A stretch of 64,000 nucleotides of DNA from Planctomycetota bacterium (GCA_016873115.1 VGYB01000004.1:1-64000), one strand, 5' to 3'; positions 6,259-35,422 are shown, counted from the first letter of the stretch. Made by a program: numbers and translations. The notes: a model not told the origin generated them from the letters alone.

Positions 6259-7584
6259 ATGAAGGTCACGATGGTCGGTACGGGTTACGTCGGTCTGGTC
6301 ACGGGTGCGTGCTTCGCCGACATGGGCAATGATGTGACCTGCCTTGATGTGGATCCACGCAAGATCGAGACCCTCAAGCGCGGCGAGAGCCCGATCTACG
6401 AGCCGGGCCTGAGCGAGATGCTCAAGCGCAACCTCAAGACCGGCCGCCTGCACTTCACCCTGGACACGGCGGATGCGTACCGCAACGCCCAGGCGATCTT
6501 CATCTGCGTCGGTACGCCGAGTGACAAGGATGGCAGCGCCGACCTTCAGCATGTGCTGCGCGTGGCCAACGACATCGGCGATGCGCTCCATGCACTGGGT
6601 ATGAAGGGTGCCGACAAGCTGGTCATCGTGAAGAGCACCGTGCCTGTGGGGACGAGCCACCAGGTGCGCGACACGATCCGCGCCAAGACCAAGGTGCCCT
6701 TCCACATTGCCGACAACCCTGAATTCCTCAAGGAAGGCGACGCGATCAACGACTTCATGCGGCCGGACCGCGTGGTCTGCGGCGTCGAGAGCGAGAAGGC
6801 CGAGGCGGTCCTGCGTGCGCTGTACGAGCCGTTCGTGCGCCAGGGCAACCCGATCTACTTCATGGATGTCCGCAGCGCGGAGATGGTCAAGTACGCGAGC
6901 AATGCCATGCTGGCCTGCAAGATCAGCTTCATCAACGAGATCGCCAACCTGACTGAGCTCTACGGCGCGAACATCACGAGCGTTCGGGAAGGCATGTGCG
7001 CCGACAAGCGCATCGGCAACCAGTTCCTCTATCCGGGCCTGGGCTACGGTGGCTCATGCTTCCCCAAGGACACCCAGGCGGTGGTGGGCATGGGTCGAGC
7101 CGTGGGCTTCGAGTGCAAGCTCAACGCCTCGGTGCACGAGGTGAACCAGGACCAGCGCTCCCACTTCTGGGGCAAGATCGAGCAGGAACTGGGCGGCGTG
7201 AAGGGCAAGCGCCTGGCGTTCTGGGGCGTGGCGTTCAAGCCCCGCACCGACGACATCCGCGAGGCCCCGTCGATCGCCCTGATGGAGCGTGCCGTCGCGG
7301 CAGGCGCCAACGTGCGTGCGTTCGATCCGGTCGCCATGGAGAACATGGCGAAGGAATTCCCCCAGGCCGAGGCCGCGAACGACATGTATCACGCGCTTGA
7401 CGGGGCCGATGCGCTGGTCATCTGCACCGAGTGGAACGACTTCCGCAGCCCCGACTTCGGCGAGATGGCGCGGCGCATGAAGGGGCGCACCATCTTCGAC
7501 GGACGCAACCTCTACCGCTCGGAGCAGGTGACCGACGCTGGCTTCGTCTACGCCAGCGTGGGTCGCGAAACCGTCCGCCCGTGA
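6259..7584 (+). CDS. ugd: UDP-glucose 6-dehydrogenase
   Basis: 441 aa. It oxidises UDP-glucose to UDP-glucuronate with two NAD+, supplying acidic sugars for cell-surface polysaccharides. The N-terminal Rossmann motif is GTGYVGLVTGACFADMG. The catalytic Cys267 is in GYGGSCFPKDT. The NAD-binding block PEFLKEGDA and the C-terminal block WGVAFKPRTDDIREAPS are intact. The start ATG follows AGAGGAGATCC, a good ribosome site. No other polysaccharide gene is adjacent. Confidence 0.98.
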   Translation: MKVTMVGTGYVGLVTGACFADMGNDVTCLDVDPRKIETLKRGESPIYEPGLSEMLKRNLKTGRLHFTLDTADAYRNAQAIFICVGTPSDKDGSADLQHVLRVANDIGDALHALGMKGADKLVIVKSTVPVGTSHQVRDTIRAKTKVPFHIADNPEFLKEGDAINDFMRPDRVVCGVESEKAEAVLRALYEPFVRQGNPIYFMDVRSAEMVKYASNAMLACKISFINEIANLTELYGANITSVREGMCADKRIGNQFLYPGLGYGGSCFPKDTQAVVGMGRAVGFECKLNASVHEVNQDQRSHFWGKIEQELGGVKGKRLAFWGVAFKPRTDDIREAPSIALMERAVAAGANVRAFDPVAMENMAKEFPQAEAANDMYHALDGADALVICTEWNDFRSPDFGEMARRMKGRTIFDGRNLYRSEQVTDAGFVYASVGRETVRP

Positions 7585-7676
7585 GCGCGCGCCGCGGACG
7601 CCGGTGACCTTGACCGGACATGCCGGGCTGAGTGCAAAAACTTTGGGATTCCCGTGGTTTTTGGCCTTCCAACCCC

Positions 7677-7705
7677 TTGAAATGCACGATTGCCCCACTT
7701 ATCTT
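7677..7705 (+). promoter_or_regulatory. Promoter of the HU-like gene
   Basis: TTGAAA (7677-7682), a 17-base spacer and TATCTT (7700-7705) form one of the best sigma-70-like promoters in the window. Transcription would begin near 7712, about 77 bases before the start codon. The AT-richer stretch 7630-7720 contrasts with the surroundings. Confidence 0.7.
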
Positions 7706-7788
7706 GGGGTTATCCCGGAGCGGAGATTCGGACGACGCCCGGTTCGCACTCACGGCCCAATAATCGGGCCAGAACAGGATTGGAAAGA

Positions 7789-8139
7789 ATGGCTACCGCC
7801 ACCAAGAAGAAGGCCTACAAGGCTACCCCCACCAACACCACCCGCAGCAAGTCGCAGGTCATCGCCGAGTGCGTGACCGCTACTGGCCTGACCCGCAAGC
7901 AGGTCGTCGGCGTGTTCGACACCTTGACTCAGGTCATGGTCGCTGACCTCGGCAGGAAGGGCTGCGGCACCTTCAAGTTCCTCGGCTTCAAGATGGTCGC
8001 CAAGACCACTCCCGCCAAGCGCGGCGGTGAGAGGAAGATCAACCCCCTCACCGGCAAGGAGTACATCACCAAGGCCAAGCCGGCTGCCCGCAAGGTCCGC
8101 GTCCGCGCGCTGAAGACCTTCACGCAGCACATCGTCTGA
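7789..8139 (+). CDS. HU/IHF-family DNA-binding protein with basic N-terminal extension
   Basis: 116 aa. After a Lys/Thr-rich N-terminal tail of about 22 residues (ATKKKAYKATP...), the HU fold begins at SKSQVIAECV. The dimerisation helices follow, then a CGTFKFLGFKMV strand and the DNA-clamp arm with INPLTGKEY, matching the GRNPQTGE arm of HU. Role: nucleoid architecture. The start at 7789 follows GGAAAGA with good spacing; upstream codons are not HU-like. The promoter (7677-7705) and terminator (8221-8256) make it a single-gene unit. The basic tail recalls histone-like extensions found in other HU variants. It is assigned to the HU family; which subfamily cannot be told by eye. Confidence 0.88.
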   Translation: MATATKKKAYKATPTNTTRSKSQVIAECVTATGLTRKQVVGVFDTLTQVMVADLGRKGCGTFKFLGFKMVAKTTPAKRGGERKINPLTGKEYITKAKPAARKVRVRALKTFTQHIV

Positions 8140-8220
8140 TGACGGCACTCTCCTGCCACCGTGCTTGCGCGGCGGCGGAATGATGTCAGGCGGCAACGCC
8201 TGAGAGCAAGCGAACCGACC

Positions 8221-8256
8221 GGACCCCGCGTGATGAACGCGGGGTCCGTCGCTTTT
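8221..8256 (+). terminator. Rho-independent terminator of the HU-like gene
   Basis: A perfect 10-bp stem GGACCCCGCG / CGCGGGGTCC with loop TGATGAA is followed by GTCGCTTTT. Confidence 0.85.
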
Positions 8257-8339
8257 GGGTGGTTGATCCTGTCGCTCGCGTGGCTGCAAACCGCGTGGCT
8301 GCAAGCGATGTCTCCTCGAAGAGCTGCGAGAACGGGAGC

Positions 8340-9263
8340 CTAGCGCTCGATGGCTGCGCGAAGAACCCCGTGGGCGGCATCAAGACGCGCCTGCGCCGCA
8401 GCACGATCCAGCCCACTCGCATGCATGACGAGCGCGATCTTCAGGCTGCCACCGGCAGCATCGAGCAGCGCGGCCCCCTGCTCGCGTGAGAGTTCCGGAT
8501 GCATGGTGCGCATGATCCGCACGGCACGATCGACGAGCTTGTCGTTGGTGGCCGCCAGGTCCACCATCAGGTTCCCATGCACCTTGCCGAGCTTGGTGAA
8601 GAGCGTGGTGGTGATGCAGTTGAGGGCGAGCTTCGTCGCCGTGCCCGCCTTCAGCCGCGTGGATCCGGTGATCACTTCAGGCCCCGTCCCGATGAGCAGC
8701 AGATGGTCGCAACCCGCTGGCGCATCGCACGGGGCGCATGAGAGGAACGCCGTGAGCGCTCCGCGTTGCTTGGCCATGGTCACCGCGCCGCGCGGGTACG
8801 GGGTGGTGCCACCAGCCGCGATGCCGACCACGGCGTCCTGCGCGCCGATGGCAAGCCGATCGAACTCCGCGGCGATCCCACGCGGATCGTCTTCCATGCG
8901 CTCGCTCGAGGTCCGCAGGGCCGAGTCACCGCCGGCGATCACGCCGATGACCTGGTCGGCCCGCGAGCGGAAGGTCGGCGGGCACTCGCTCGCATCGAGC
9001 ACGCCGAGCCGGCCGCTGGTGCCGGCACCGGCATAGAGCAGGCGACCACCAGCCATCATGCGCGGGATCAACTCCGTGACGAACGCCGCGATCGCCGGCG
9101 CTGCGGCGAGTACGGCATCAACCGCCCGCAACTGGTCGCCGGCAAGCACCTCGATGCAGCCCCGCACCGACAGCGCATCGAACTCGAGGGAGCCCGGGTG
9201 CCGCTGCTCGGTGCCGACATGGCTTCGATCCGGTGGAAGCGCTCGCGCCATGACCTGCATCAT
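8340..9263 (-). CDS. murQ: N-acetylmuramic acid 6-phosphate etherase
   Basis: 307 aa cytosolic enzyme that cleaves the lactyl ether of MurNAc-6-phosphate to GlcNAc-6-phosphate, in cell-wall sugar recycling. The SIS-domain block AGAGTSGRLGVLDASECPPTF contains the catalytic glutamate (E93). The second acid is in the stretch ERMEDDP. The later blocks GTGPEVITGSTRLKAGTATK and NLMVDLAATNDKL are typical. Three alternative ATG starts (9263, 9260, 9251) are equally possible. It is last in a minus-strand run: membrane protein, PfkB kinase, S9 peptidase, murQ (22-base gap). No murein-sugar kinase gene (anmK) or transporter is adjacent; the PfkB kinase is not an obvious MurNAc kinase. Confidence 0.95.
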   Translation of the reverse strand: MMQVMARALPPDRSHVGTEQRHPGSLEFDALSVRGCIEVLAGDQLRAVDAVLAAAPAIAAFVTELIPRMMAGGRLLYAGAGTSGRLGVLDASECPPTFRSRADQVIGVIAGGDSALRTSSERMEDDPRGIAAEFDRLAIGAQDAVVGIAAGGTTPYPRGAVTMAKQRGALTAFLSCAPCDAPAGCDHLLLIGTGPEVITGSTRLKAGTATKLALNCITTTLFTKLGKVHGNLMVDLAATNDKLVDRAVRIMRTMHPELSREQGAALLDAAGGSLKIALVMHASGLDRAAAQARLDAAHGVLRAAIER

Positions 9264-22042: not shown

Positions 22043-22115
22043 GGGGCGTTAGCTCAATTGGCAGAGCGCTGCCTTTGCAAGGCAGAGGTTACCGGTTCGA
22101 CTCCGGTACGCTCCA
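22043..22115 (+). tRNA. tRNA-Ala (anticodon TGC)
   Basis: Complete 73-base cloverleaf. The acceptor arms are GGGGCGT / ACGCTCC with discriminator A and the G3-U70 pair that identifies alanine tRNAs. The anticodon stem CTGCC/GGCAG has loop TTTGCAA, giving anticodon TGC. The T-arm is CCGG-TTCGACT-CCGG. CCA is not encoded. The tandem terminator array begins 2 bases downstream. Confidence 0.97.
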
Positions 22116-22116
22116 T

Positions 22117-22222
22117 CTTCGGCAGCCGTCCCAGCGGCTGCCTTTTTGTTTCGAGCCTTCGGCAGCCGTCCCAGCGGCTGCCTTTTTGTTTCGAGCCTTC
22201 GGCAGCCGTCCCAGCGGCTGCC
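22117..22222 (+). repeat. Tandem 40-bp repeat, 2.65 copies, each carrying an intrinsic terminator
   Basis: Identical units begin at 22117, 22157 and 22197. Each contains the hairpin GGCAGCCG, loop TCCCAG, CGGCTGCC. In the first two copies this is followed by CTTTTTG-type T-runs and TTTCGAGC; the third copy ends after the hairpin without the T-run. The array starts 2 bases after tRNA-Ala, so it acts as a double (possibly triple) terminator of the tRNA transcript. Copies are identical by eye, implying recent expansion by slippage or unequal exchange. On the minus strand no T-run follows the hairpins, so it should not terminate rsmE, whose stop is 13 bases away. Confidence 0.9.
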
Positions 22223-22234
22223 GGCACCGCGACC

Positions 22235-22933
22235 TCAACCGATCCGAATGACCGACATCGCCGCGCTCGCCGCAAGTTCGATGCGGAGCATCGTCGCACC
22301 AAGCCCAACTCGCACGGCACCCGCTGCCTCGCACGCCGCGACCTCGCGATCGGAGAAACCGCCCTCGGGCCCAATGAGCACCGTCACGGCCTCGAGCCCG
22401 CGCACCGCCTCGCGCAGCGGCACACCACCCGGATGAAGGATCAAGGAACGGCCATGGGCCGCGCGCACCGCCGCCTCGGGCGAGACCTCGGGGGCGATCG
22501 TGCACGCCCAGGGCTGGCGTGACTGCTTGCAGGATTCAAGCGCAATGCGCTCAAGCCGCGCCGCGAGATTCGGCGACATGCGCTGGACGCTGCGCTCGCA
22601 GGCGAGCGGCGTGATCGACGCCGGCTCGAATGGCATGCATGACTCGATCAGCGTGGCGCTGCGATCGCCCTTGGGGATCGCACACACCAGATGCACGGCA
22701 GGCCTGGCCCGGGGCGCCCTGGTGGAGTTCCCCACATCGATCGCGAGTGCGCCATCGTGCCGGCGCTGATCGGTCACGACGCCCCTGCCGACATGGCCGG
22801 CACCATCGAAGAGCGTGACGGCATCGCCGGCACCGAGGCGTCGTGCCCCCAACGCATGCTTCGCCTCGTCCTTGGGGATCCAGACGATGCCCGCATCCTC
22901 GAGTGACGGAACATGGAACCAGGCGGTGCTCAT
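22235..22933 (-). CDS. rsmE: 16S rRNA m3U1498 methyltransferase
   Basis: 232 aa SPOUT-class methyltransferase that methylates N3 of U1498 in 16S rRNA. It has an N-terminal PUA-like domain (about 1-75) with HALGARRLGAGD. The SPOUT knot carries IGPEGGFSDREV and the SAM-binding LGATMLRIELA. The usual LR-x-ETA end of the family is here LRIELA, with Leu for Thr, a mild variation. The SRQPW block in the middle is typical. Its ATG overlaps the TGA of rsmJ by four bases (ATGA), so the two rRNA methyltransferases are translationally coupled. Confidence 0.93.
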   Translation of the reverse strand: MSTAWFHVPSLEDAGIVWIPKDEAKHALGARRLGAGDAVTLFDGAGHVGRGVVTDQRRHDGALAIDVGNSTRAPRARPAVHLVCAIPKGDRSATLIESCMPFEPASITPLACERSVQRMSPNLAARLERIALESCKQSRQPWACTIAPEVSPEAAVRAAHGRSLILHPGGVPLREAVRGLEAVTVLIGPEGGFSDREVAACEAAGAVRVGLGATMLRIELAASAAMSVIRIG

Positions 22934-26269: not shown

Positions 26270-26986
26270 TCACTTGGTTGCAGACCAACGCCCACCACGC
26301 CACCACCAGGTGGCATCATCGATGCCGAAGGCGCTGGCCGGATCGCGTGCATCGACCTCCGGAACCGATGATGCGAGTCCACAACGGAGTTCATCGAGCG
26401 CTCGAGGGGTCCGGGCCAGGAGGGCCGCCTCCACGGCCAGCAACTGGTCGGCCTGGCGCGGCGAGAGTTGCGGAGGTGCCGAAGCCGAGAGCCCCGTGCA
26501 CGCACGGATGAACCCTTCCCCGCCGCCGGGCAGGAGCGCGCCCCACTCGCGGGCAAGCGCCACGCACGCCGCATCACGCCCCAGTCGCTGGGCCTGCAGC
26601 GAACGCCCCGCGCGATAGTGCGAGATCAACTCCGCGAATCGGAGGCGATCAGCGTCGGGCGCCACCCACGCTCCGCGCGCCACGCGCGTCGGGGCCAACA
26701 TGCGGGCCAGCGCATGCCATCTGGCCCATGCGCCGTGGACGGATGGATCCTCGAGCGACGCCATGCCCAACGCAGCACTGGCCGCCATGCCTGGGTCCTG
26801 GGCCGCTGCCGCCAAGGCACCGGAGCGGCGAAAGAGCTGGCGCGCCAGGTCGACCTCGCCGTCACGCGCAGCATCCTCGCCGGCTTCGAGGTAGGCCAAT
26901 GGCCTGGCGGGATCGAGCGCATCGAGCCGCTCGGGCCACGGCGGCACGGCGATCATCGCCAGGAGGATGGCGACGACCCTCACCAT
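26270..26986 (-). CDS. Exported helical-repeat protein, last gene of the VWA-ExbBD operon
   Basis: 238 aa, not recognised. It starts at ATG 26986, which gives a hydrophobic N-terminus (MVRVVAILLAMIAVPP) and overlaps the previous gene by 7 bases. The body is Ala-rich and almost all helical, with TPR/SEL1-like heptads (LAYLEAGEDAARDGEVDLARQLF). The C-terminal 50 residues carry WWWRGGRW. No catalytic motif is seen. Being coupled to the genes upstream, it most likely works with them in the envelope. Confidence 0.7.
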   Translation of the reverse strand: MVRVVAILLAMIAVPPWPERLDALDPARPLAYLEAGEDAARDGEVDLARQLFRRSGALAAAAQDPGMAASAALGMASLEDPSVHGAWARWHALARMLAPTRVARGAWVAPDADRLRFAELISHYRAGRSLQAQRLGRDAACVALAREWGALLPGGGEGFIRACTGLSASAPPQLSPRQADQLLAVEAALLARTPRALDELRCGLASSVPEVDARDPASAFGIDDATWWWRGGRWSATK

Positions 26987-28707
26987 GTCCACCGCCCCGC
27001 TCGCACACCGATGGCACGCGTGATCGCGCGCTGGTTGGCGATCGCCTGTTCGAGAGCGCTCCCTGCTTCGGCGCGTGACGACGCTGCCGCCTCCAGGGCA
27101 TGCTCGGCCGATGCGCGCTCGCCGCGCGAGACCCCGTTGGCCGGCAGCGCGAGTGCATCGAGCAGCGCCGTCTGCCATGCGATGAAGCGAGCCACCTCGC
27201 CATCAGCGGCGTGAAGTCGCAGCGCGGCCATGTCACGGGCAGGCGGAGTGCCTGCACTGCCCTGCACGATGGCCTCGATCGATGCGGTGCCCAGGTCCCC
27301 TTCGCCGCCCCGCGCAGGCACCGCCCCCAGAAGCGGCGCAATGCGTCCCCATGAGAGTTGGCACGCCGCCACACGCTGGCGGATCGAGTCAGCCTCACCC
27401 TGCGCCAGTGCGATCGCGCGCTCGACGAGGACCTGCCTGATCCGGATCGCACCGTCGGTCGAGGACGCATCGAGTCCAGCACGCCCCAGCCATGCGCTGA
27501 TCGCCGTCGATGCCGTGCCGGGATCGGCGATGGCCAGCACATCCAGCCACCCCATCGCCATCTCCGCGCTGGAAGGGAATCGCGTCTGCGTGATGGCACG
27601 CGCGCGGCGTGAGAGACCATCCTCGGGGCCGCAGGCCAGCAACGCCAGCGTGCGTGCATCCGAGGGGCCGATCTCGTTGGCCGTGCCGAGCCAACGATTG
27701 AGTGCCAGGACCCGCGCCTCGGGACCGTCGGCGCGATCGATCGCCACGGCAAGGCCTCCATCGCCGACCGATCGTCTGCGCTGGACGGCCGGTTCAGGCG
27801 CACGGAACGACTCAGGCATGCCATCGAGGATCAACCGCGCATCGGCCGCTCGGCCCGCATCCAGCAGGAGTGCTGCCTCGGTCAACGCCTGGATGCGCTC
27901 CAAGAGCGAGAGCTCCGCATCGACGCCTGCACCGGTCGAGAGTCGCGATCCGTCCAGCCGAGCAGCGAGCTGGTCCCAGTCCGTCGAGGGCGCCAAGCCA
28001 CGCTTCTGCGTCGATACGGGATCATCCGGCATCGAAGGAAGGGCTGCGGGTGGACGGGGCGAACGCACCGCTGGTCTCGACTCCGGTGCAGGCTTCGGCT
28101 GGGACCCGGGTGGTTGCTCGGCCTGAGTCACTCCCGGGTTGGACTCCCGGGTTGGTGGGGAGACGGCCGCTTCGTCCATGCGACCTCGATCGAGCACCGC
28201 CAGCGTGATGGTGGCCGTGGCTGCGAGGGCGAGGATCGCCGCCATGAAACCGATCGCCCACGGCAGCCACGACCGGTCACGATCACGCCGCAAGGCCCCC
28301 ATGGATGGAGCGACGGCAGGCCGCGAGGCCATGCCCGGATCGCCCGAAGGACCGCCGAGCAGTTCGACCAAGCCACCAGGATCGACGCCATGCAGTGCAG
28401 CCCAACGCAGCGCACGAGCACGAGCCTGGCGATTCCAACCGCCTGCACTGGCGACCAACGCGCGCAGGCCATCAGGGTCGGCCGCTTCCGTCGCCTGGTC
28501 GACGAGGATGCGCACCGCTGCCCGAAGCCGGGCACGCGCCGCGATGAACGCCGGATCATGCTCGGGAAACCGAGCATGGACCGCCCGCAACCGCTGCGTC
28601 GCACTTTCGAGGATCTCATCGCGGGAAGCATCAGGTGCAACACCGATGAGTTCATGTGGCGGCACATCAGGCGTCACGCCAAAGCATGCGTGGAGCGCAT
28701 CGATCAT
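26980..28707 (-). CDS. Single-pass membrane protein with J-like N-terminus and helical repeats
   Basis: 575 aa, not recognised. The N-terminal about 70 residues (ACFGVTPDVPPHELIGVAPDAS.. then helices) look like a degenerate J-domain-type helical bundle without the HPD motif. A clear membrane helix lies at 147-172 (WLPWAIGFMAAILALAATA..). A Pro/Ser-rich linker follows to about 240, then a long Ala-rich helical region resembling TPR or HEAT repeats to the end. Predicted topology: short cytoplasmic N-domain, one span, large periplasmic helical domain. The start ATG at 28707 overlaps the stop of the preceding gene (ATGA). Confidence 0.7.
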   Translation of the reverse strand: MIDALHACFGVTPDVPPHELIGVAPDASRDEILESATQRLRAVHARFPEHDPAFIAARARLRAAVRILVDQATEAADPDGLRALVASAGGWNRQARARALRWAALHGVDPGGLVELLGGPSGDPGMASRPAVAPSMGALRRDRDRSWLPWAIGFMAAILALAATATITLAVLDRGRMDEAAVSPPTRESNPGVTQAEQPPGSQPKPAPESRPAVRSPRPPAALPSMPDDPVSTQKRGLAPSTDWDQLAARLDGSRLSTGAGVDAELSLLERIQALTEAALLLDAGRAADARLILDGMPESFRAPEPAVQRRRSVGDGGLAVAIDRADGPEARVLALNRWLGTANEIGPSDARTLALLACGPEDGLSRRARAITQTRFPSSAEMAMGWLDVLAIADPGTASTAISAWLGRAGLDASSTDGAIRIRQVLVERAIALAQGEADSIRQRVAACQLSWGRIAPLLGAVPARGGEGDLGTASIEAIVQGSAGTPPARDMAALRLHAADGEVARFIAWQTALLDALALPANGVSRGERASAEHALEAAASSRAEAGSALEQAIANQRAITRAIGVRAGRWTW

Positions 28708-31109
28708 CCCTCGACCCCCAGCCGAAGCGCGAGTTCCGCAAGCGGCCCCGCCTGCAGGCCCTGCTTCCATCCGGGAGTGAGCGTGAAGAGCTGGCGGAGC
28801 AATGTGCGCGCACGCCCTGGATCCACTCGCGAGAGAGAATCGATCAGCATTACATCGACCGCGGCCCGATCGGGATCATCCGCGGCCAGACCCGACGCAA
28901 GCTTGGTCCCCCAGGTCACGGCGCGAGCATCATCTCCGGCAGCGCGGGATGCGGCCAGAGCGCTCAGCAAGGTGGTCCGGTCCGGGGATCGATCTGCGAG
29001 CGCTGTGGCAACGCTCATCAACTGCGGTGCGAGCGTGGACTCACCCGCGCGCACTGCGACGGTCGCCACCTGCACCCATGTGAGCGCCGCGGCTGGATCC
29101 ACGGCAGGATCGATCCCCTCCCGTGCCGCGCTCGCGGCCTCGATCGCCAGTCGATCGCGCCGTGCTGCCTCGATCGCCCCTTGGCGGATGACCTCCCACG
29201 ATGCATCAAGAACCACACGAGCCGCCTTCGCGCGCTGCGAACCTTCGAGTGCGCCCAGTGCAGCGAGCGCCTGCTCGGGGAACCCACGCGCACAGGCCAC
29301 ACGGACCATGGCTTCAGCCACGACCCCCCGCTCGGCCGGCTCCATCGACGCGAGCGATCGTGCCGCTGCGATCTCATCCAGCAGTGCACCTGCGCGGGCG
29401 ACCGTGGCCGGCGAGCGGAACCACGGAAGCATCGCCGTCACCAGTTGGCGAAGCACCACAGGATCGATGCGCCCATCCGGCCACGCGCTGCTGGGCACTG
29501 GCGCGGGACGCATGACCAGTTCAGCCAGGCGAAGCCGATCCGACGCGGGTGACGCGCGCATGCGCTCGTATGCCGCAGTGCACAGCGCATCCTGCGCCCG
29601 GCGCCATGCCGGGTCTGACTCATCGACGGCCTCGAGGGCGAGCAGCACGGGGTCGTCGTGGATCCCCTGCGACGCCGCAAGGATCGCCACCCGCGTGGAC
29701 CATTCACCCGCGGGCGGTCCCGCCAGGAATGCAAGCGACTCCTCGCGCAAGGCCGGATCCTGCGCGGCAGCGAGTGCCAGCAGTCGAAACCACTGCACGG
29801 CGGGCGCGGGTTCGCGCGCTTGCGCGAGGCACTCGCCCGCAATCACGGCCGCCTGGGATGGATCGCCGGCCCGGAGCAGGAGCCGAGCGGCTTCGAGCTT
29901 GAGCGTGGTGGCCGCCGATCCCTTCGTGGTCGCCGCAATGCCGAGTGCGCCCTCCGCAGCACGCCGCAGGGCATCAGGCGTGGCTGTTGGATCGCTGGAA
30001 GCAGTGGCCAACCCACCGAGAGCCTGCACGACGCCGCCCGCCCCTGAGGGCGGCAGCGCCTGTGCCACCCAGGACACCAAGTCGCCGCGACCTGAAGCGA
30101 GCAGCATCGGCAGTGCCGCCTCGACCACGCGCAGGGCCTTCTCGTCAGTCGCCCCGAGCCGTGCAGCACGGCGCGCCACGCGGGCGAGCGCAGGCTCGGA
30201 GCCCTGCGGCACCTGTCCCGCGCTGGTCAGCAGCACACGGGCGCGCGTCCAATCCCGTGCGTCGAGGCACACCTGCACACGCCACTCCATCGCGGCCGAA
30301 CGGACGACCGGCGCGGTGACTGGATCATCACACAGCTCGAGCCAACGCATGGCATCACTGGCGCCGCCACGCTCCAAGAGGGCCCGAGCCTGAGCCATGC
30401 CCACGATCGCCCAGGCATAGACCTCGTTCGATCGCAGATCGACGCTGACCTCCTCCGGCTTCAGGGCGCGACCATCGATCTCCAGGACATCGGCCAAGGG
30501 AGGGATCGCCGACTCAGCCAACTCCTCCACGCCGCGACCCTCGCCCTGCGTGCGGAGCCACGCACCCTGGAGCCTCGACCACGCCAGACGCGATCGCAGC
30601 ATCTGCTCGAACCCCGGCGGCGTGCGCGAACCAAGGTCCTTGATCATGGCTTGCGAGAGCGACTCCGCCCGGCTCGCCCAGCCGATCGCTTGCGCCACCT
30701 CGGGCGCGGGAACCTCATCGCCCGCACGAAGCCGACCGATCACCTGGCCGCTTGCCTCGAGCAGGCGACCCACGCAGGCCATGCCTGGCGCATCCACATG
30801 CACGGTGGCGAACTGGCCGAGGATGCGCTCCAAGCGCTGTGCCAAGGCATCCGCGAGTTCCGGATCGGCCCCTTCGGCCATGGGCTCGATGGCGCGTACG
30901 AGATCGCGCGCGACCGCCTCGCGTTCCTCGGGGCTGGCAGCCTGATCGAACCGGCGCTCAGCCAGATGCCACGCGAGCCGATCGAGCCGAAGCGAGCCTG
31001 ACAATCGCTCGAGCGCCGCCGCATCGGCATCGAGACGCCCTTGATCGGCACGCGCTGGATGCCCGACCGTCGCCAGCAGCAGTGCCACGGCAACGCACCG
31101 CGCCAGCAT
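28704..31109 (-). CDS. Large exported TPR/HEAT-like helical-repeat protein
   Basis: 801 aa, not recognised. The ATG at 31109 gives a signal peptide (MLARCVAVALLLATVGHPARA). An in-frame upstream extension of 128 Arg/Pro-rich residues is antisense-like and excluded, since it would overlap the ExbD gene. The mature protein is an unbroken series of Ala/Leu/Arg-rich helix pairs, as in TPR or HEAT solenoids. It probably lies in the periplasm and may scaffold the ExbBD complex encoded upstream. A 43-base gap separates it from the second exbD, the only sizeable gap inside this operon. Confidence 0.72.
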   Translation of the reverse strand: MLARCVAVALLLATVGHPARADQGRLDADAAALERLSGSLRLDRLAWHLAERRFDQAASPEEREAVARDLVRAIEPMAEGADPELADALAQRLERILGQFATVHVDAPGMACVGRLLEASGQVIGRLRAGDEVPAPEVAQAIGWASRAESLSQAMIKDLGSRTPPGFEQMLRSRLAWSRLQGAWLRTQGEGRGVEELAESAIPPLADVLEIDGRALKPEEVSVDLRSNEVYAWAIVGMAQARALLERGGASDAMRWLELCDDPVTAPVVRSAAMEWRVQVCLDARDWTRARVLLTSAGQVPQGSEPALARVARRAARLGATDEKALRVVEAALPMLLASGRGDLVSWVAQALPPSGAGGVVQALGGLATASSDPTATPDALRRAAEGALGIAATTKGSAATTLKLEAARLLLRAGDPSQAAVIAGECLAQAREPAPAVQWFRLLALAAAQDPALREESLAFLAGPPAGEWSTRVAILAASQGIHDDPVLLALEAVDESDPAWRRAQDALCTAAYERMRASPASDRLRLAELVMRPAPVPSSAWPDGRIDPVVLRQLVTAMLPWFRSPATVARAGALLDEIAAARSLASMEPAERGVVAEAMVRVACARGFPEQALAALGALEGSQRAKAARVVLDASWEVIRQGAIEAARRDRLAIEAASAAREGIDPAVDPAAALTWVQVATVAVRAGESTLAPQLMSVATALADRSPDRTTLLSALAASRAAGDDARAVTWGTKLASGLAADDPDRAAVDVMLIDSLSRVDPGRARTLLRQLFTLTPGWKQGLQAGPLAELALRLGVEG

Positions 31110-31152
31110 GATGCTCGCGCAAGGGATCCCGCCTGGGCAGGCGACGTCACGC

Positions 31153-31557
31153 TCACCGTGCGGGTGCATACGCCACCTCTCCGAAGCCGGCATCGGTCGC
31201 GGCTTGCATCGCCGCCGCCACGGAGGCAACCGACGCGCTGTCATGGCCCCGCACGAGCAAGCCGGCTTGCTTGGGAAGCCGCTCAAGGATCGAACGCAGC
31301 TCATCCCGCGTGGCGACGGCATTGCTGCCCACCGTGAAGGCCACGGCACTGCCACCACGGACCTCAACCACCTGCGGGCGCAACTCGCTGGCCACCGAGG
31401 CGGCGCGTGCAGCAAGCGCCGCGGTGAGCTGTTCCTCGCGTCGCTCGACGCCCGAGGTGAAGATGAAGTACGCCAGAAGCAGGAATGTGGCATCGATCAT
31501 GCTGGTCATGCCCAGCACGATGCGACCGCCACGGCGCCCACCACGCGCGAATCTCAT
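31153..31557 (-). CDS. ExbD/TolR-type protein, second copy
   Basis: 134 aa. Short basic N-terminus (MRFARGGRRGG), then one membrane helix at 16-38 (GMTSMIDATFLLLAYFIF) with the proton-pathway aspartate D22 retained, and a periplasmic domain of about 95 residues ending in the typical RGHDSASVASVAAAMQAATDAGFGEVAYA. It pairs with ExbB to form the proton channel. It overlaps the other exbD by four bases (ATGA). Two different ExbD proteins beside one ExbB suggest a heteromeric TolR/ExbD pair. Confidence 0.9.
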   Translation of the reverse strand: MRFARGGRRGGRIVLGMTSMIDATFLLLAYFIFTSGVERREEQLTAALAARAASVASELRPQVVEVRGGSAVAFTVGSNAVATRDELRSILERLPKQAGLLVRGHDSASVASVAAAMQAATDAGFGEVAYAPAR

Positions 31558-31967
31558 GTGCCGCCTCCCGGCGTGGTGGCGAGACGGATGCCGTCGAACC
31601 CGGCCTGTCGGCACGCATCGATGACATCATTGAGCCGAGCTCCCGGTGCGCTCCGATCGGCCCGCACCACGGGCACCAGGCGACCGCGCTCACTGCGCGA
31701 TGCACGGGCAGCCGCCGTGAGCTCATCCATCGTGACGACGCGGCCTGCGAGTTCGCAGGAACCGTCGGCGCGGATCGACACGACAAGTCCAGGACCGGTC
31801 GGCGTTGGATCGGGTGTACCCGCCTCGCGCGGCAGGTCCAGCTTCACCCGATTGGCCTGTGCGATCGCTGCCGTCGTGAGGAAGAAGATGAGCAACTGGA
31901 AGACGATGTCGATCATCGGCGTCATGTCGATGCCGCCCTCGGTCGTCATCCGCCTGGCGAATCTCAT
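31554..31967 (-). CDS. ExbD/TolR-type protein, first copy
   Basis: 137 aa, with the ExbD pattern: MRFARRMTTEGG, membrane helix with MTPMIDIVFQLLIFFLTTAA and the conserved aspartate D20, then a periplasmic domain (LVPVVRADRSAPGARLNDVIDACRQAGFD). The shared MRFAR start suggests that the two exbD genes arose by duplication. Start and stop overlap the neighbours by ATGA on both sides. It transduces proton-motive force together with the ExbB upstream. Confidence 0.92.
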   Translation of the reverse strand: MRFARRMTTEGGIDMTPMIDIVFQLLIFFLTTAAIAQANRVKLDLPREAGTPDPTPTGPGLVVSIRADGSCELAGRVVTMDELTAAARASRSERGRLVPVVRADRSAPGARLNDVIDACRQAGFDGIRLATTPGGGT

Positions 31968-32677
31968 GCACGGCCTCCGCGAACCTTGGCAGCGTGGCGC
32001 TCCAGATCGGCGACGACACGGTCGCATTCGTCGCCAACGAGCGCAACGATCCGCGTGAGCCGTGTGCGCAGGAAGGTGTGGAGGGCAATGCATGGGATGG
32101 CGACGCACAGCCCCTGGAAGGTGGTGATGAGCGCGATCGAGATGTTGTCCGCGAGCCGCTGGTAATAGCTTGAATCGTTCACGGCACTCGAGGCCACGGT
32201 CTCGAAGGCACCGATCATGCCCTGGACCGTGCCGAGCAGACCCAAGAGCGTGGCGATGTTCGCGATCGCCGCAAGCCAATCAAGCCGCTGTTCAAGCTGC
32301 ATCGACTCCTCGCCGCCGGCATCTTCCATGGCACTGCGGGCTTCCAACGGCCCGAGCGGTCCTTGGCTGGCACGCGTCAGGCCAGCACGCAGCACGCGAC
32401 CGGCGAAGCAGTCCGCGTCAGCCAGCTTGAGTCGCTCGAGCGCCCTGCCGAAGTGCCCCTGCGAGGCCATCGTGTTGACATCGTCCATCAGCGATGCCGG
32501 AGCCAGCGACGCTGCACGCAAGTACACCAGTTGCGCGAGCCCATGCGTCACGGCGATCACGCTCAAGCCGATGATCACGTACCCGACGATGCCGCCACCG
32601 GTGAGGTAGCGCAGATAGGTGGCCGAGGCCTCTTGGGCGAGGAGCGGCATGGAGTGAAGGCCAAGGAGCACATGCAT
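31964..32677 (-). CDS. MotA/TolQ/ExbB-family proton channel protein
   Basis: 237 aa. Three membrane helices: about 28-50 (GGGIVGYVIIGLSVIAVT), 132-158 (WLAAIANIATLLGLLGTVQGMI) and 172-200 (NISIALITTFQGLCVAIPCIALH). The cytoplasmic region lies between helices 1 and 2. The block LLGLLGTVQGMIGAF and the polar NISIALITT helix are the ExbB/TolQ signature. The start ATG at 32677 shares its base with the stop of the gene upstream (TGATG); a GTG one codon earlier is possible. Together with the two ExbD it should form a 5:2-type proton-driven motor in the inner membrane. Confidence 0.93.
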   Translation of the reverse strand: MHVLLGLHSMPLLAQEASATYLRYLTGGGIVGYVIIGLSVIAVTHGLAQLVYLRAASLAPASLMDDVNTMASQGHFGRALERLKLADADCFAGRVLRAGLTRASQGPLGPLEARSAMEDAGGEESMQLEQRLDWLAAIANIATLLGLLGTVQGMIGAFETVASSAVNDSSYYQRLADNISIALITTFQGLCVAIPCIALHTFLRTRLTRIVALVGDECDRVVADLERHAAKVRGGRA

Positions 32678-33705
32678 CACGGTGAGGTTCCTTCCTGGAG
32701 CAAACGGTTCCGGACGGTGGTAGCGCCGCGGGCATCACCCGCGGCATCGAGCGCCTGGGCGCCGAGGGCGGCACAGGTCGCGGAAAGCATGGGAATCGCG
32801 GCATCGTCGCAGGCGACGACGGTCAGGAACTGCTCCGCCGCATCGAGCGCGAGCCGGCGTGCCTCGACGGATCCCGGCTTGGCGGCACGGGCTTCGATCA
32901 TGAGCGACTGACCGATGGCTGCGCGGCACCAGTGGCGTACCGGGGTCTCGTTCCGAGCGAGCATGTCGGCCAAGGCTTCGCGGGCGCGCTGCCGCGTGCT
33001 CGGCGCATCCGCAAGGGCATCGAGCCACTGCTCGAGCACCAGCCGCTCCCGGCGCATGACGTCGTCCCTTGCGGCCCCGCGCGATGGCTTGGACAGTGGC
33101 TTGGGCTCCACGCCGGCCTGGCGGGCAGCGACTTCGCGCATGAGTGCGCTCCACGCCGCCGCGCGCGGCGCAGCGGAGGGCGCTGCATCGAATGCGGTGC
33201 ACGCTTCGTGGGCTTCCTTCTGATCGGCATACGCCGGGCACAGATCCGCTGGCCACGGCGGGAGGGCATCGTCAGCCGAGAGTTCGATCGCCCTGACCTG
33301 CGCCAGAGCCGCGGCCGTGCCACGGCCGCATGCCTGCAACGACCGAGCCCATTGCAGCCAGGCGATCTGGACGCACTCACCGCGTGCCCCGGCCAGCAGC
33401 GCCGTCACACGCTCATAGGCCTCGGCGGCCAGCGCGGCATCGCCCCGGATCAGGCGCTGCTCACCGCGCCGAGCGGCGTCGCCAGCCTCGATCCAGGCCG
33501 ACCATGATGGATCGGCGGGTGCGATCGAACGCACCTCGGACCAGCCGAGCGTGACGGTGGCCTTGCCTCCTTCGAGCGCGATGACCACACCGCAGGCATC
33601 GGCACGCGCCACGGTGCCGCGCACCGGCGCGCCGCCCCAGGGCGTGCATTCGATCGAGTCGGCGGCGAGCACCGCGGCCGCCAGCATGGTTGGCGCAAGG
33701 ACCAT
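32677..33705 (-). CDS. Exported protein with N-terminal beta domain and helical repeats
   Basis: 342 aa, not recognised. The hydrophobic N-terminus (MVLAPTMLAAAVLAA) looks like a signal peptide. A short beta-rich module follows at about 17-65 (VRGTVARADACGVVIALEGG.. TLGWSEVRSI), the kind that begins many planctomycete secreted proteins. The rest is Ala-rich helical with TPR-like spacing. It starts in a TGATG overlap with the VWA gene and ends in one with exbB, so it is an integral operon member. Confidence 0.72.
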   Translation of the reverse strand: MVLAPTMLAAAVLAADSIECTPWGGAPVRGTVARADACGVVIALEGGKATVTLGWSEVRSIAPADPSWSAWIEAGDAARRGEQRLIRGDAALAAEAYERVTALLAGARGECVQIAWLQWARSLQACGRGTAAALAQVRAIELSADDALPPWPADLCPAYADQKEAHEACTAFDAAPSAAPRAAAWSALMREVAARQAGVEPKPLSKPSRGAARDDVMRRERLVLEQWLDALADAPSTRQRAREALADMLARNETPVRHWCRAAIGQSLMIEARAAKPGSVEARRLALDAAEQFLTVVACDDAAIPMLSATCAALGAQALDAAGDARGATTVRNRLLQEGTSP

Positions 33706-34646
33706 CACTGCGGGTACTCGGGTACGAAGGTGAAACTGCCCCCACTCACGGCAGCCACGCGCTGCAACTGCACCTTCCCCGCGTCACTGCCGAGGGCGAT
33801 GCAATGGATGACCGCAGGCCGCCCCGAGGCGTTCAAGGCGAGGATCGCATCGACCTCCTCGGGATTGATCTCGCCGTCGCTGAGGAAGTACACCAGATCC
33901 GGCCGTTCGCCCTGGCCGAAGGCGCGACGGAACGCGCCGATGGGCGAGGTGTCACCCGAGGGACGCATGCCGGCAAGGAACGCCACGAAGTCATCGCGCG
34001 ATGCGCCGCGCAGGCGGGTGAAGGCATCGAAGCCCGGCGGTGAGACCACGGTCGTGTCATAGAAGAGCACGCACACCTTGGCGTAGTCAGGCAAGCCCCA
34101 GACGGCCGCCGTGACTTCCGCCCGCGCACGATCCATGCGGCTGCCGCGTGACATCGAGCCACTCTTGTCCACGATGAAGGCGACGCGACGGCCCGTGCCC
34201 TGCACACCGAAGAAGGTGGTGCCGCCCCCGCTCCCGCCACCGAACCCATCGCCCCCGCCATCACCCACGCCCATCCCGGCCCCGGCGCCGAATCCACTCT
34301 CGATCGGTACCGGCGACCCCTGCCTGGGCAGCGGCATCGCCTCGGCACTCGCGGGATCGGCGGTGCCCGGGGACTCGAGCGCCGGCAGGTCATCGGCCAG
34401 CTCGGTCGATGGCTCCGCCGGCCGCTCAAGCGGCGTCGGCGCGGCAAGCACGACATCGAAGACCTCGAACACGGGCTCCGTCGCCACAGGGCGGAGCATC
34501 GGGATCAGCGCAAGCACGCCGACGAGCAGCAGGTGGAACGGCACGCTGAAGGCCACCCCCAGCAGGATGGCACGCAACAGCCGGGGCGTACGCACGGGTG
34601 GTTCGCCGCTCTCCTGCCGTGCTCCTGCAGCCGACTGCACGCGCAT
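33705..34646 (-). CDS. Membrane-anchored VWA protein with TonB-like layout
   Basis: 313 aa, first gene of the eight-gene minus-strand operon. Layout: short basic N-terminus, one membrane helix at about 24-50 (LLRAILLGVAFSVPFHLLLV), a Pro/Ala/Glu-rich stretch at 51-118, a Gly-rich hinge at 119-142, then a von Willebrand A domain at 153-313. The metal site DKSGSMS (D160-x-S162-x-S164) is intact, and SDGEINPEEVDAIL and GSDAGKVQLQRVAAVSGGSF follow as expected. A membrane anchor plus a Pro-rich periplasmic spacer is the layout of TonB and TolA, but here the end domain is VWA. The start at 34646 is chosen because an upstream in-frame start would sit within the divergent pyrH leader. It is 56 bases from pyrH. 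Confidence 0.88.
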   Translation of the reverse strand: MRVQSAAGARQESGEPPVRTPRLLRAILLGVAFSVPFHLLLVGVLALIPMLRPVATEPVFEVFDVVLAAPTPLERPAEPSTELADDLPALESPGTADPASAEAMPLPRQGSPVPIESGFGAGAGMGVGDGGGDGFGGGSGGGTTFFGVQGTGRRVAFIVDKSGSMSRGSRMDRARAEVTAAVWGLPDYAKVCVLFYDTTVVSPPGFDAFTRLRGASRDDFVAFLAGMRPSGDTSPIGAFRRAFGQGERPDLVYFLSDGEINPEEVDAILALNASGRPAVIHCIALGSDAGKVQLQRVAAVSGGSFTFVPEYPQ

Positions 34647-34702: not shown

Positions 34703-35422
34703 ATGGCGAGCCCCTACAAGCGCATCCTCCTGAAGATCAGCGGCGAGTCGTTGGCCGAACAAGGCCAGTTCGGGATCTCGCCCGGCGAGTTGTCGATCAT
34801 CGCCGCCGAGATCGCCGCGGCCAAGCAGTCCGCCGCGTTCGACCTGGCCGTCGTGGTCGGTGGCGGCAACATCATCCGCGGCGCCAAGCTCGCCGCTGAA
34901 GGCAAGTTCGACCAGAGCACCGCCGACTACATGGGCATGCTCGGCACGGTCATCAACGGCCTGGCGCTCAAGGAGGCCCTGGCGGCGGTCGGCGTGGAGA
35001 GCCGCGTCATGAGCGCGATCCTGCTGCCCTCGGTGGCTGAGTCCTTCATCCGGCCCCGGGCGCTCCGTCACTTCGAGAAGGGCCGCGTGGTCATCCTGAC
35101 CGCAGGCACGGGCAACCCCTACTTCACCACCGACACCTGCGCGAGCCTGCGCGCAATCGAATTGAATGCGGATGTCCTGCTCAAGGCCACCAAGGTCGAT
35201 GGCGTCTATACCTCGGACCCGCGCAAGGATCGATCGGCACGGCGCTACGACAAGCTGACCTTCAGCGAAGCCGTCGAGAAGCAGCTGGGCGTCATGGATC
35301 TCACGGCCCTGACCATGTGCATGGAGCACAGGCTCCCGTTGATCGTCTTCGACTACAAGGTGCCCGGGAACATCACGCGCGCGGTGCGCGGGGAGTCCAT
35401 CGGCACGCTGGTCAGGGCCTGA
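34703..35422 (+). CDS. pyrH: UMP kinase
   Basis: 239 aa cytosolic amino-acid-kinase-fold enzyme phosphorylating UMP to UDP with ATP. Motifs: KRILLKISGESLA at the start, VVVGGGNIIRG, and TADYMGMLGTVINGLAL in the UMP site. TAGTGNPYFTTDTCA follows, with LLKATKVDGVYTSDPRKD for ATP binding. It is followed by frr (48-base gap), a pyrH-frr pairing common in bacteria. Confidence 0.98.
   Translation: MASPYKRILLKISGESLAEQGQFGISPGELSIIAAEIAAAKQSAAFDLAVVVGGGNIIRGAKLAAEGKFDQSTADYMGMLGTVINGLALKEALAAVGVESRVMSAILLPSVAESFIRPRALRHFEKGRVVILTAGTGNPYFTTDTCASLRAIELNADVLLKATKVDGVYTSDPRKDRSARRYDKLTFSEAVEKQLGVMDLTALTMCMEHRLPLIVFDYKVPGNITRAVRGESIGTLVRA

Follow-up and report, generated by a model that had tools for sequence, protein, structure and literature searches.

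An eight-gene cassette pairing an ExbB/ExbD-type motor with a candidate VWA force transducer in Phycisphaerales

The locus and its eight products

The window, a 64,000-nt stretch of a planctomycete genome (G000; 2.36 Mb, 96% complete), contains eight minus-strand open reading frames at 26270–34646 (Table 1). A first-pass annotation had described them as a mostly overlapping set, and we confirmed overlaps at six of the seven junctions: TGATG at VWA/TPR342 and TPR342/ExbB; ATGA at ExbB/ExbD1, ExbD1/ExbD2, and S801/S575; and 7 nt at S575/S238. The sole gap, of 43 nt, lies between ExbD2 and S801. Pfam matches agree with the names given earlier to the VWA, ExbB, and two ExbD genes; for TPR342, S801, S575, and S238, the Pfam search gave no family over the cut-off. 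All eight genes have dN/dS values of 0.04–0.15 relative to a congener, indicative of purifying selection, and thus behave as real genes. Scans of the locus for sigma-70 promoters and terminators gave no signal above shuffled sequences. Elsewhere in the window, a tRNA gene (22043–22115) is directly followed by three tandem 40-bp copies (22117–22236), two of them identical and the third at 68%, which contain an internal palindrome (GGCAGCCGTCCCAGCGGCTGCC).

Table 1. Features of the cassette locus and its neighbor, with window coordinates.
Feature	Coordinates	Strand	Evidence
VWA protein, candidate force transducer, 313 aa	33705..34646	-	Pfam VWA_3 1e-10; alignment A1
TPR342, exported	32677..33705	-	family A4, spanning the order
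ExbB/TolQ-like channel subunit, 237 aa	31964..32677	-	PF01618 (MotA_ExbB) 9e-26
ExbD1	31554..31967	-	PF02472 3e-25; aligned to E. coli ExbD
ExbD2, divergent second ExbD	31153..31557	-	PF02472 2e-9
S801, exported, predicted periplasmic TPR superhelix, 801 aa	28704..31109	-	AlphaFold2; structure and profile matches
S575, predicted J-domain-like head, TM, and external helical repeats	26980..28707	-	AlphaFold2; J-domain matches
S238, small exported protein, last gene	26270..26986	-	family A5; signal-like N-terminus
pyrH, divergent neighbor, outside the system, marks the fixed locus	34703..35422	+	73/73 loci

Among the accessory proteins, TPR character is clear for S801 and weak for TPR342. The latter has a signal-like N-terminus, a small N-terminal domain, and a helical part, with weak TPR matches in single members only. 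The AlphaFold2 model of S801 (pLDDT 91.7) is a TPR superhelix of ~39 helices, whose best match to TPR superhelix structures has a Z of 17.7 (rmsd 11.9 over 378 residues). S801 also matches a consensus-TPR profile (2.6e-22), its profile touches that of YbgF/CpoB (2xev, E 0.0011), and its structural matches include LbcA, a TPR adaptor of bacteria (Z 12.2, rmsd 23.4 over 375 residues). Full-length S801 is otherwise rare, with 20 of 294 genomes of the phylum matching at E ≤1e-10, about half of them partly. The Campylobacter periplasmic flagellar scaffold was rejected as a relative of S801, the resemblance being that of a generic solenoid (TM-score 0.23).

The model of S575 (AlphaFold2, pLDDT 79) has a J-domain-like head (amino acids 6–79), a TM segment (about 147–179), and an external helical-repeat domain that weakly matches ARM/HEAT-type structures. 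The head superimposes on the J-domain 2ys8 (Z 8.8, 2.7 Å over 72 residues), and three more J-domain entries follow at Z 7.1–7.2. Foldseek assigns J-domain probabilities of 0.92–0.99 but E values of about 1–2.5, and we therefore regard the modeled head as a J-domain fold resemblance and not a proven J-protein. At the expected HPD loop, S575 of the window has FPEHDP, and its relatives often show HP. Homologues of S575 are 840–1,220 amino acids in length in many relatives, and both S575 and S238 are less conserved. The earlier picture of periplasmic solenoids is supported by the S801 model and holds in part for S575, with its predicted cytoplasmic head, single TM, and external helical repeats.

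The motor and the VWA protein

The ExbB-like protein aligns to TolQ and ExbB structures, and its Thr150, Thr186, and Pro195 are invariant in 66 sequences; both pore threonines are thus intact. The position equivalent to Glu176 of E. coli ExbB is occupied by a nonacidic residue, Ile. The transmembrane aspartates of ExbD1 (Asp20) and ExbD2 (Asp22) are each invariant in 66 of 66 sequences, and both ExbDs thus keep the proton-carrying Asp. These intact Asp and Thr residues support the proton-driven motor proposed at first pass. The presence of two different ExbDs suggests a heterodimeric axle.

The VWA protein of the window has a TM segment (27–45) containing SVPFH, a strand (FEVFDVVL), a Gly/Pro-rich linker, and a C-terminal VWA domain, which carries a MIDAS motif (DKSGS..T..D) and matched VWA structures in profile comparison. 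We aligned 35 diverse VWA proteins (alignment A1, whose numbering is used below). Two TM residues, S26 and H30, are invariant, as are D152, S154, S156, T225, and D249 of the MIDAS and a few further residues near the start of the VWA domain. By eye, a strand-like segment (e.g., VEFAVL) follows the TM in A1 and precedes a Gly/Pro-rich linker; it resembles the motor box, a term taken from the description of vWA transducers (PMC12204202). The SxxxH pattern, given there as the central part of the motif by which TonB and TolA dock on their motors (PMC12204202), occurs in 86 of 90 distinct cassette VWA TMs and seldom in control TMs (S575, 1/49; ExbD1, 1/78; ExbD2, 2/72). A Leu at +11 is present in 71 of 101 SxxxH TMs but a Ser at +15 in just 8 of 101, which defines the motif as SHL, not full SHLS.

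Because its TM carries SxxxH and is followed by a motor-box-like strand, the VWA protein appears to be the missing TonB/TolA equivalent, that is, the transducer itself. This candidate assignment corrects the earlier statement that no tonB or tolA is present, and it makes the VWA protein the transducer rather than an additional partner of the motor. Departures from the motif are few: the VWA proteins of L099 (9623–10555), L109 (8599–9561), and L112 (9686–10654) have SxxxN, and that of L122 has AxxxH. In L099 and L109 the motor genes accompany SxxxN, which offers a natural test of the histidine. A coupled motor loss and His-to-Asn change in G035 was not accepted, as the contig stops within TPR342 and motor genes coexist with SxxxN in L099 and L109.

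Recurrence of the cassette and its genomic setting

HMMs built from 15 members per gene were run on ~120 loci, which had been chosen by VWA similarity and not by gene context; the named relatives are metagenome-assembled genomes of Phycisphaerales/Phycisphaerae. Families f1–f4 of one order (Phycisphaerales) share the gene order VWA-TPR342-ExbB-ExbD1-ExbD2-S801-S575-S238, divergent from pyrH, and retain the cassette near-universally; it is absent from families f5 and f6. In all 73 loci having enough upstream sequence, pyrH is the divergent neighbor. The earlier idea of one unit is supported, as the genes are inherited together, and in relatives the VWA and solenoid genes are linked to exbBD, not scattered.

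Gene presence was counted in those loci, named or from the window, in which 9.4 kb or more of sequence follows the VWA gene (n = 47). All 47 have VWA and S801; ExbB, ExbD1, and ExbD2 are present in 43 each, S238 in 44, and TPR342 and S575 in 41 each. Loss of S575 from the six loci missed by its HMM (L056, L058, L060, L062, L064, and L065) was rejected, as an ORF of ~600 amino acids and the same design occupies the slot. An apparent order with ExbD1 before ExbB (L090, L099, and L109) was likewise rejected: it arose from ordering the ORFs by their stop-to-stop limits, and start-trimmed coordinates give ExbB, ExbD1, ExbD2.

TPR342 and S801 form a single fused protein in seven named loci (L067, L068, L072, L077, L079, L082, and L085). 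In G032, which has the fused protein, a separate contig carries the motor trio in the order ExbB-ExbD1-ExbD2, with cassette-type scores (7e-69, 1e-35, and 7e-36) far better than those of other ExbBs; the VWA protein retains SLPVH though the trio has relocated. The cassettes of G054 (L050) and L130 lack motor genes, and no clear cassette-type motor copy was found elsewhere in the G054 genome. The distances of the individual cassette genes co-vary (rho 0.33–0.79), for example TPR342 with S801 (0.79) and VWA with ExbB (0.72). Correlations with pyrH range from -0.07 to 0.58, and within-cassette values are mostly higher; as they still include shared descent, these correlations are no more than supportive.

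Related arrangements extend beyond these families. Family f73 (G176 and G257), outside the class, has VWA-TPR-ExbB-ExbD-ExbD-S801-S575 with pyrH not adjoining, and other Phycisphaerae families (L133 and L135) have VWA-ExbB-ExbD-ExbD with S801-like and S575-like genes. In the shorter vWA systems of f5, f6, and others (L141, L145, and L150), the last gene still encodes a large exported protein (~830–950 amino acids), and the ancestral core therefore probably had six genes, not five. Even genomes of only 2.0–2.4 Mb retain the cassette, which suggests a housekeeping function.

Among 61 relatives searched by HMM, TolB_N (PF04052) was detected in none, with matches in control genomes; OmpA-domain proteins were found in 61, Omp85 in 59, TonB_C over the cut-off in 31, and Plug in 30. 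In the genome of the window, OmpA-domain proteins are encoded on contigs C2 and C19, the copies in L152 and L153 show a lipobox-like Cys close to the N-terminus, and the HMMs gave no TonB_C or Plug match. Its contig C10 (L151, about 7056–8923, minus strand) does encode an ExbD beside gyrA and an SxxxH-type protein (SLLLH) rich in proline. The C-terminus of this protein is TonB_C-like by eye and was missed by PF03544; our statements of absence therefore extend to what the HMMs detect. Related loci occur in L160 (6755–8736), L165 (965–7068), and L166 (6460–8016), with a STAS-like ORF between gyrA and ExbD in L151 and L166, and with no ExbB alongside in the stretches examined. This ExbD and TonB-CTD-like transducer could serve a Ton/Tol-like function. 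A congener has a separate Ton cluster (G003:C6; L154, 7944–15446) of two ExbB-like proteins, two ExbDs, TonB, and a TonB-dependent receptor of ~1000 amino acids.

Relation to known systems, proposed mechanism, and alternatives

The core of the cassette resembles the vWA force transducers described in PVC bacteria, in Tichowtungia-type clusters, by Williams-Jones et al. (2025; MBE msaf138, PMC12204202), whose vWA genes adjoin TPR, tolQ-like, and paired tolR-like genes. An AlphaFold3 model is given there, and the function is stated as unknown. As described in that paper, those transducers share with the cassette the neighboring TPR, tolQ-like, and two different tolR-like genes and a C-terminal vWA tip unrelated to the TolA/TonB C-terminal domain. 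Their TM motif is of SHLS type, mostly SHL here, and their motor box and ~100-residue linker may correspond here to the strand-like segment and Gly/Pro-rich linker. The vWA gene is downstream in their clusters but first here, and S801, S575, S238, the TPR342–S801 fusion, and the pyrH linkage are extra relative to their description. The first-pass statement that no named system has this composition thus does not hold for the core, which has been known since 2025. Our literature search found no description of the eight-gene cassette as a whole; judged against the published description of the core, the full cassette, fixed beside pyrH across most families of one order, is new. The main texts of essential-gene papers on P. 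limnophila and V. spinosum make no mention of ExbB, ExbD, TolQ, Tol-Pal, or von Willebrand.

Tol-Pal (TolQ-TolR-TolA-TolB-Pal-CpoB) has in common with the cassette a motor, an SxxxH transducer, a periplasmic TPR partner, and housekeeping-type conservation, as well as OmpA-domain lipoprotein-like (Pal-like) proteins, here encoded elsewhere in the genome. The cassette differs in having a VWA domain in place of TolA domain III, two distinct ExbD/TolR proteins, long solenoids, and a J-domain-like protein, and in that TolB is undetected in the 61 genomes. The Ton system (ExbB-ExbD-TonB) likewise combines a motor with an SxxxH transducer, but the cassette transducer lacks a TonB_C domain, and roughly half of the relatives (e.g., L154) have TonB clusters with receptors apart from the cassette.

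Judged from sequence and models, the cassette is probably a PMF-driven trans-envelope force transducer of Tol/Ton type, perhaps performing Tol-like envelope work; for the pairing of motor and VWA transducer as such, our confidence is high. By analogy with E. coli Ton/Tol, five ExbBs would surround the ExbD1/ExbD2 pair (5:2) and pass protons. As in TonB and TolA, the SxxxH helix of the VWA protein would dock on the ExbB side and its motor-box strand on ExbD, and the flexible linker would place the VWA domain in the periplasm. There, a partner held by the MIDAS might be pulled or let go by the motor. TPR342, S801, and S238 would be exported and form a periplasmic scaffold or client platform, which S575, in its predicted topology, would tie through the membrane to the cytoplasmic J-domain-like head; this head may recruit or sense Hsp70. 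The machine could plausibly act on the envelope or on an extracellular target.

A Tol-like housekeeping task at the outer membrane or cell wall, in preference to nutrient uptake, is suggested by near-universal retention in f1–f4, by the fixed site, and by TolB being undetected and TonB patchy. This role draws on absences by HMM, and we advance it tentatively, at somewhat under even chances. An outright replacement of Tol-Pal, in which a PMF machine uses a metal-gated MIDAS grip (instead of the β-strand addition of TolA–TolB) to constrict or anchor the outer membrane and is coupled to Hsp70 through the J-head, seems rather unlikely. If the cassette does perform the job of Tol, this would explain an energized outer membrane in planctomycetes without TolB. 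For vWA transducers, the locus offers the full set of parts in conserved synteny, gene fusions that arose naturally, and a motor that has moved; together with the order-level pattern (TolB undetected, OmpA-domain proteins and Omp85 kept, TonB optional), it makes the function of the vWA motor testable by deletion and pull-down.

Energized uptake or export, with the motor driving a porter other than a TonB-dependent receptor, a secretion channel, or a lipoprotein shuttle and the TPR solenoids as cargo adaptors, would follow Ton logic, bring motor and solenoids together, and fit the LbcA match of S801. Such a motor would need another client in the genome of the window, which has no Plug or TonB_C match; on the same ground uptake through TonB was set aside, though a divergent TonB-like protein occurs there. 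As the cassette has no recurrent gene for a transporter, porin, or channel, and the set is retained even in genomes of 2.0–2.4 Mb, we consider uptake or export unlikely. Two units that are merely co-transcribed, the motor (vWA-TPR-ExbBDD) and an envelope group (S801-S575-S238) with no relation to it, would account for the lower conservation of S575 and S238 and for a motor trio that relocates alone; the joining of TPR342, on the motor side, to S801, on the solenoid side, in one lineage, the presence of S801 alongside VWA in every one of the 47 long loci, and the large exported protein after two ExbDs in distant vWA systems make this division improbable.

Surface adhesion or gliding, with an adhesin-like VWA tip handled by an Agl-type motor, would suit the intact MIDAS and the kinship of ExbB/TolQ to the gliding motor (PMC12505986); a role in gliding has been suggested by Williams-Jones et al. 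(PMC12204202). A linker of just ~100 residues attaches the VWA domain to the inner membrane, so that the domain is unlikely to reach the surface, and the cassette has no outer-membrane anchor. It is also retained by lineages that are not known to glide, and this role is quite improbable. A TolQ-type motor for anti-phage defense, as in Zorya, is hinted at by a weak match of ExbB to ZorA (E 0.003). The other seven proteins match no defense model, ZorB and the effectors ZorC/D/E were not found among the eight, and a locus fixed across families does not behave as an island; defense was rejected as extremely improbable.

A second vWA family (PMC12204202), as described, combines tolQ with paired vWA genes and no tolR. 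It shares a vWA protein and a TolQ-like protein with the cassette and has the Asp-bearing helix on the vWA protein, where the cassette has two ExbDs and SxxxH. On contig C53 of the window's genome (1457–4182), a VWA ORF lies near a weak ExbB/TolQ match (5.8e-7), with no ExbD match reported there; it may belong to this second family.
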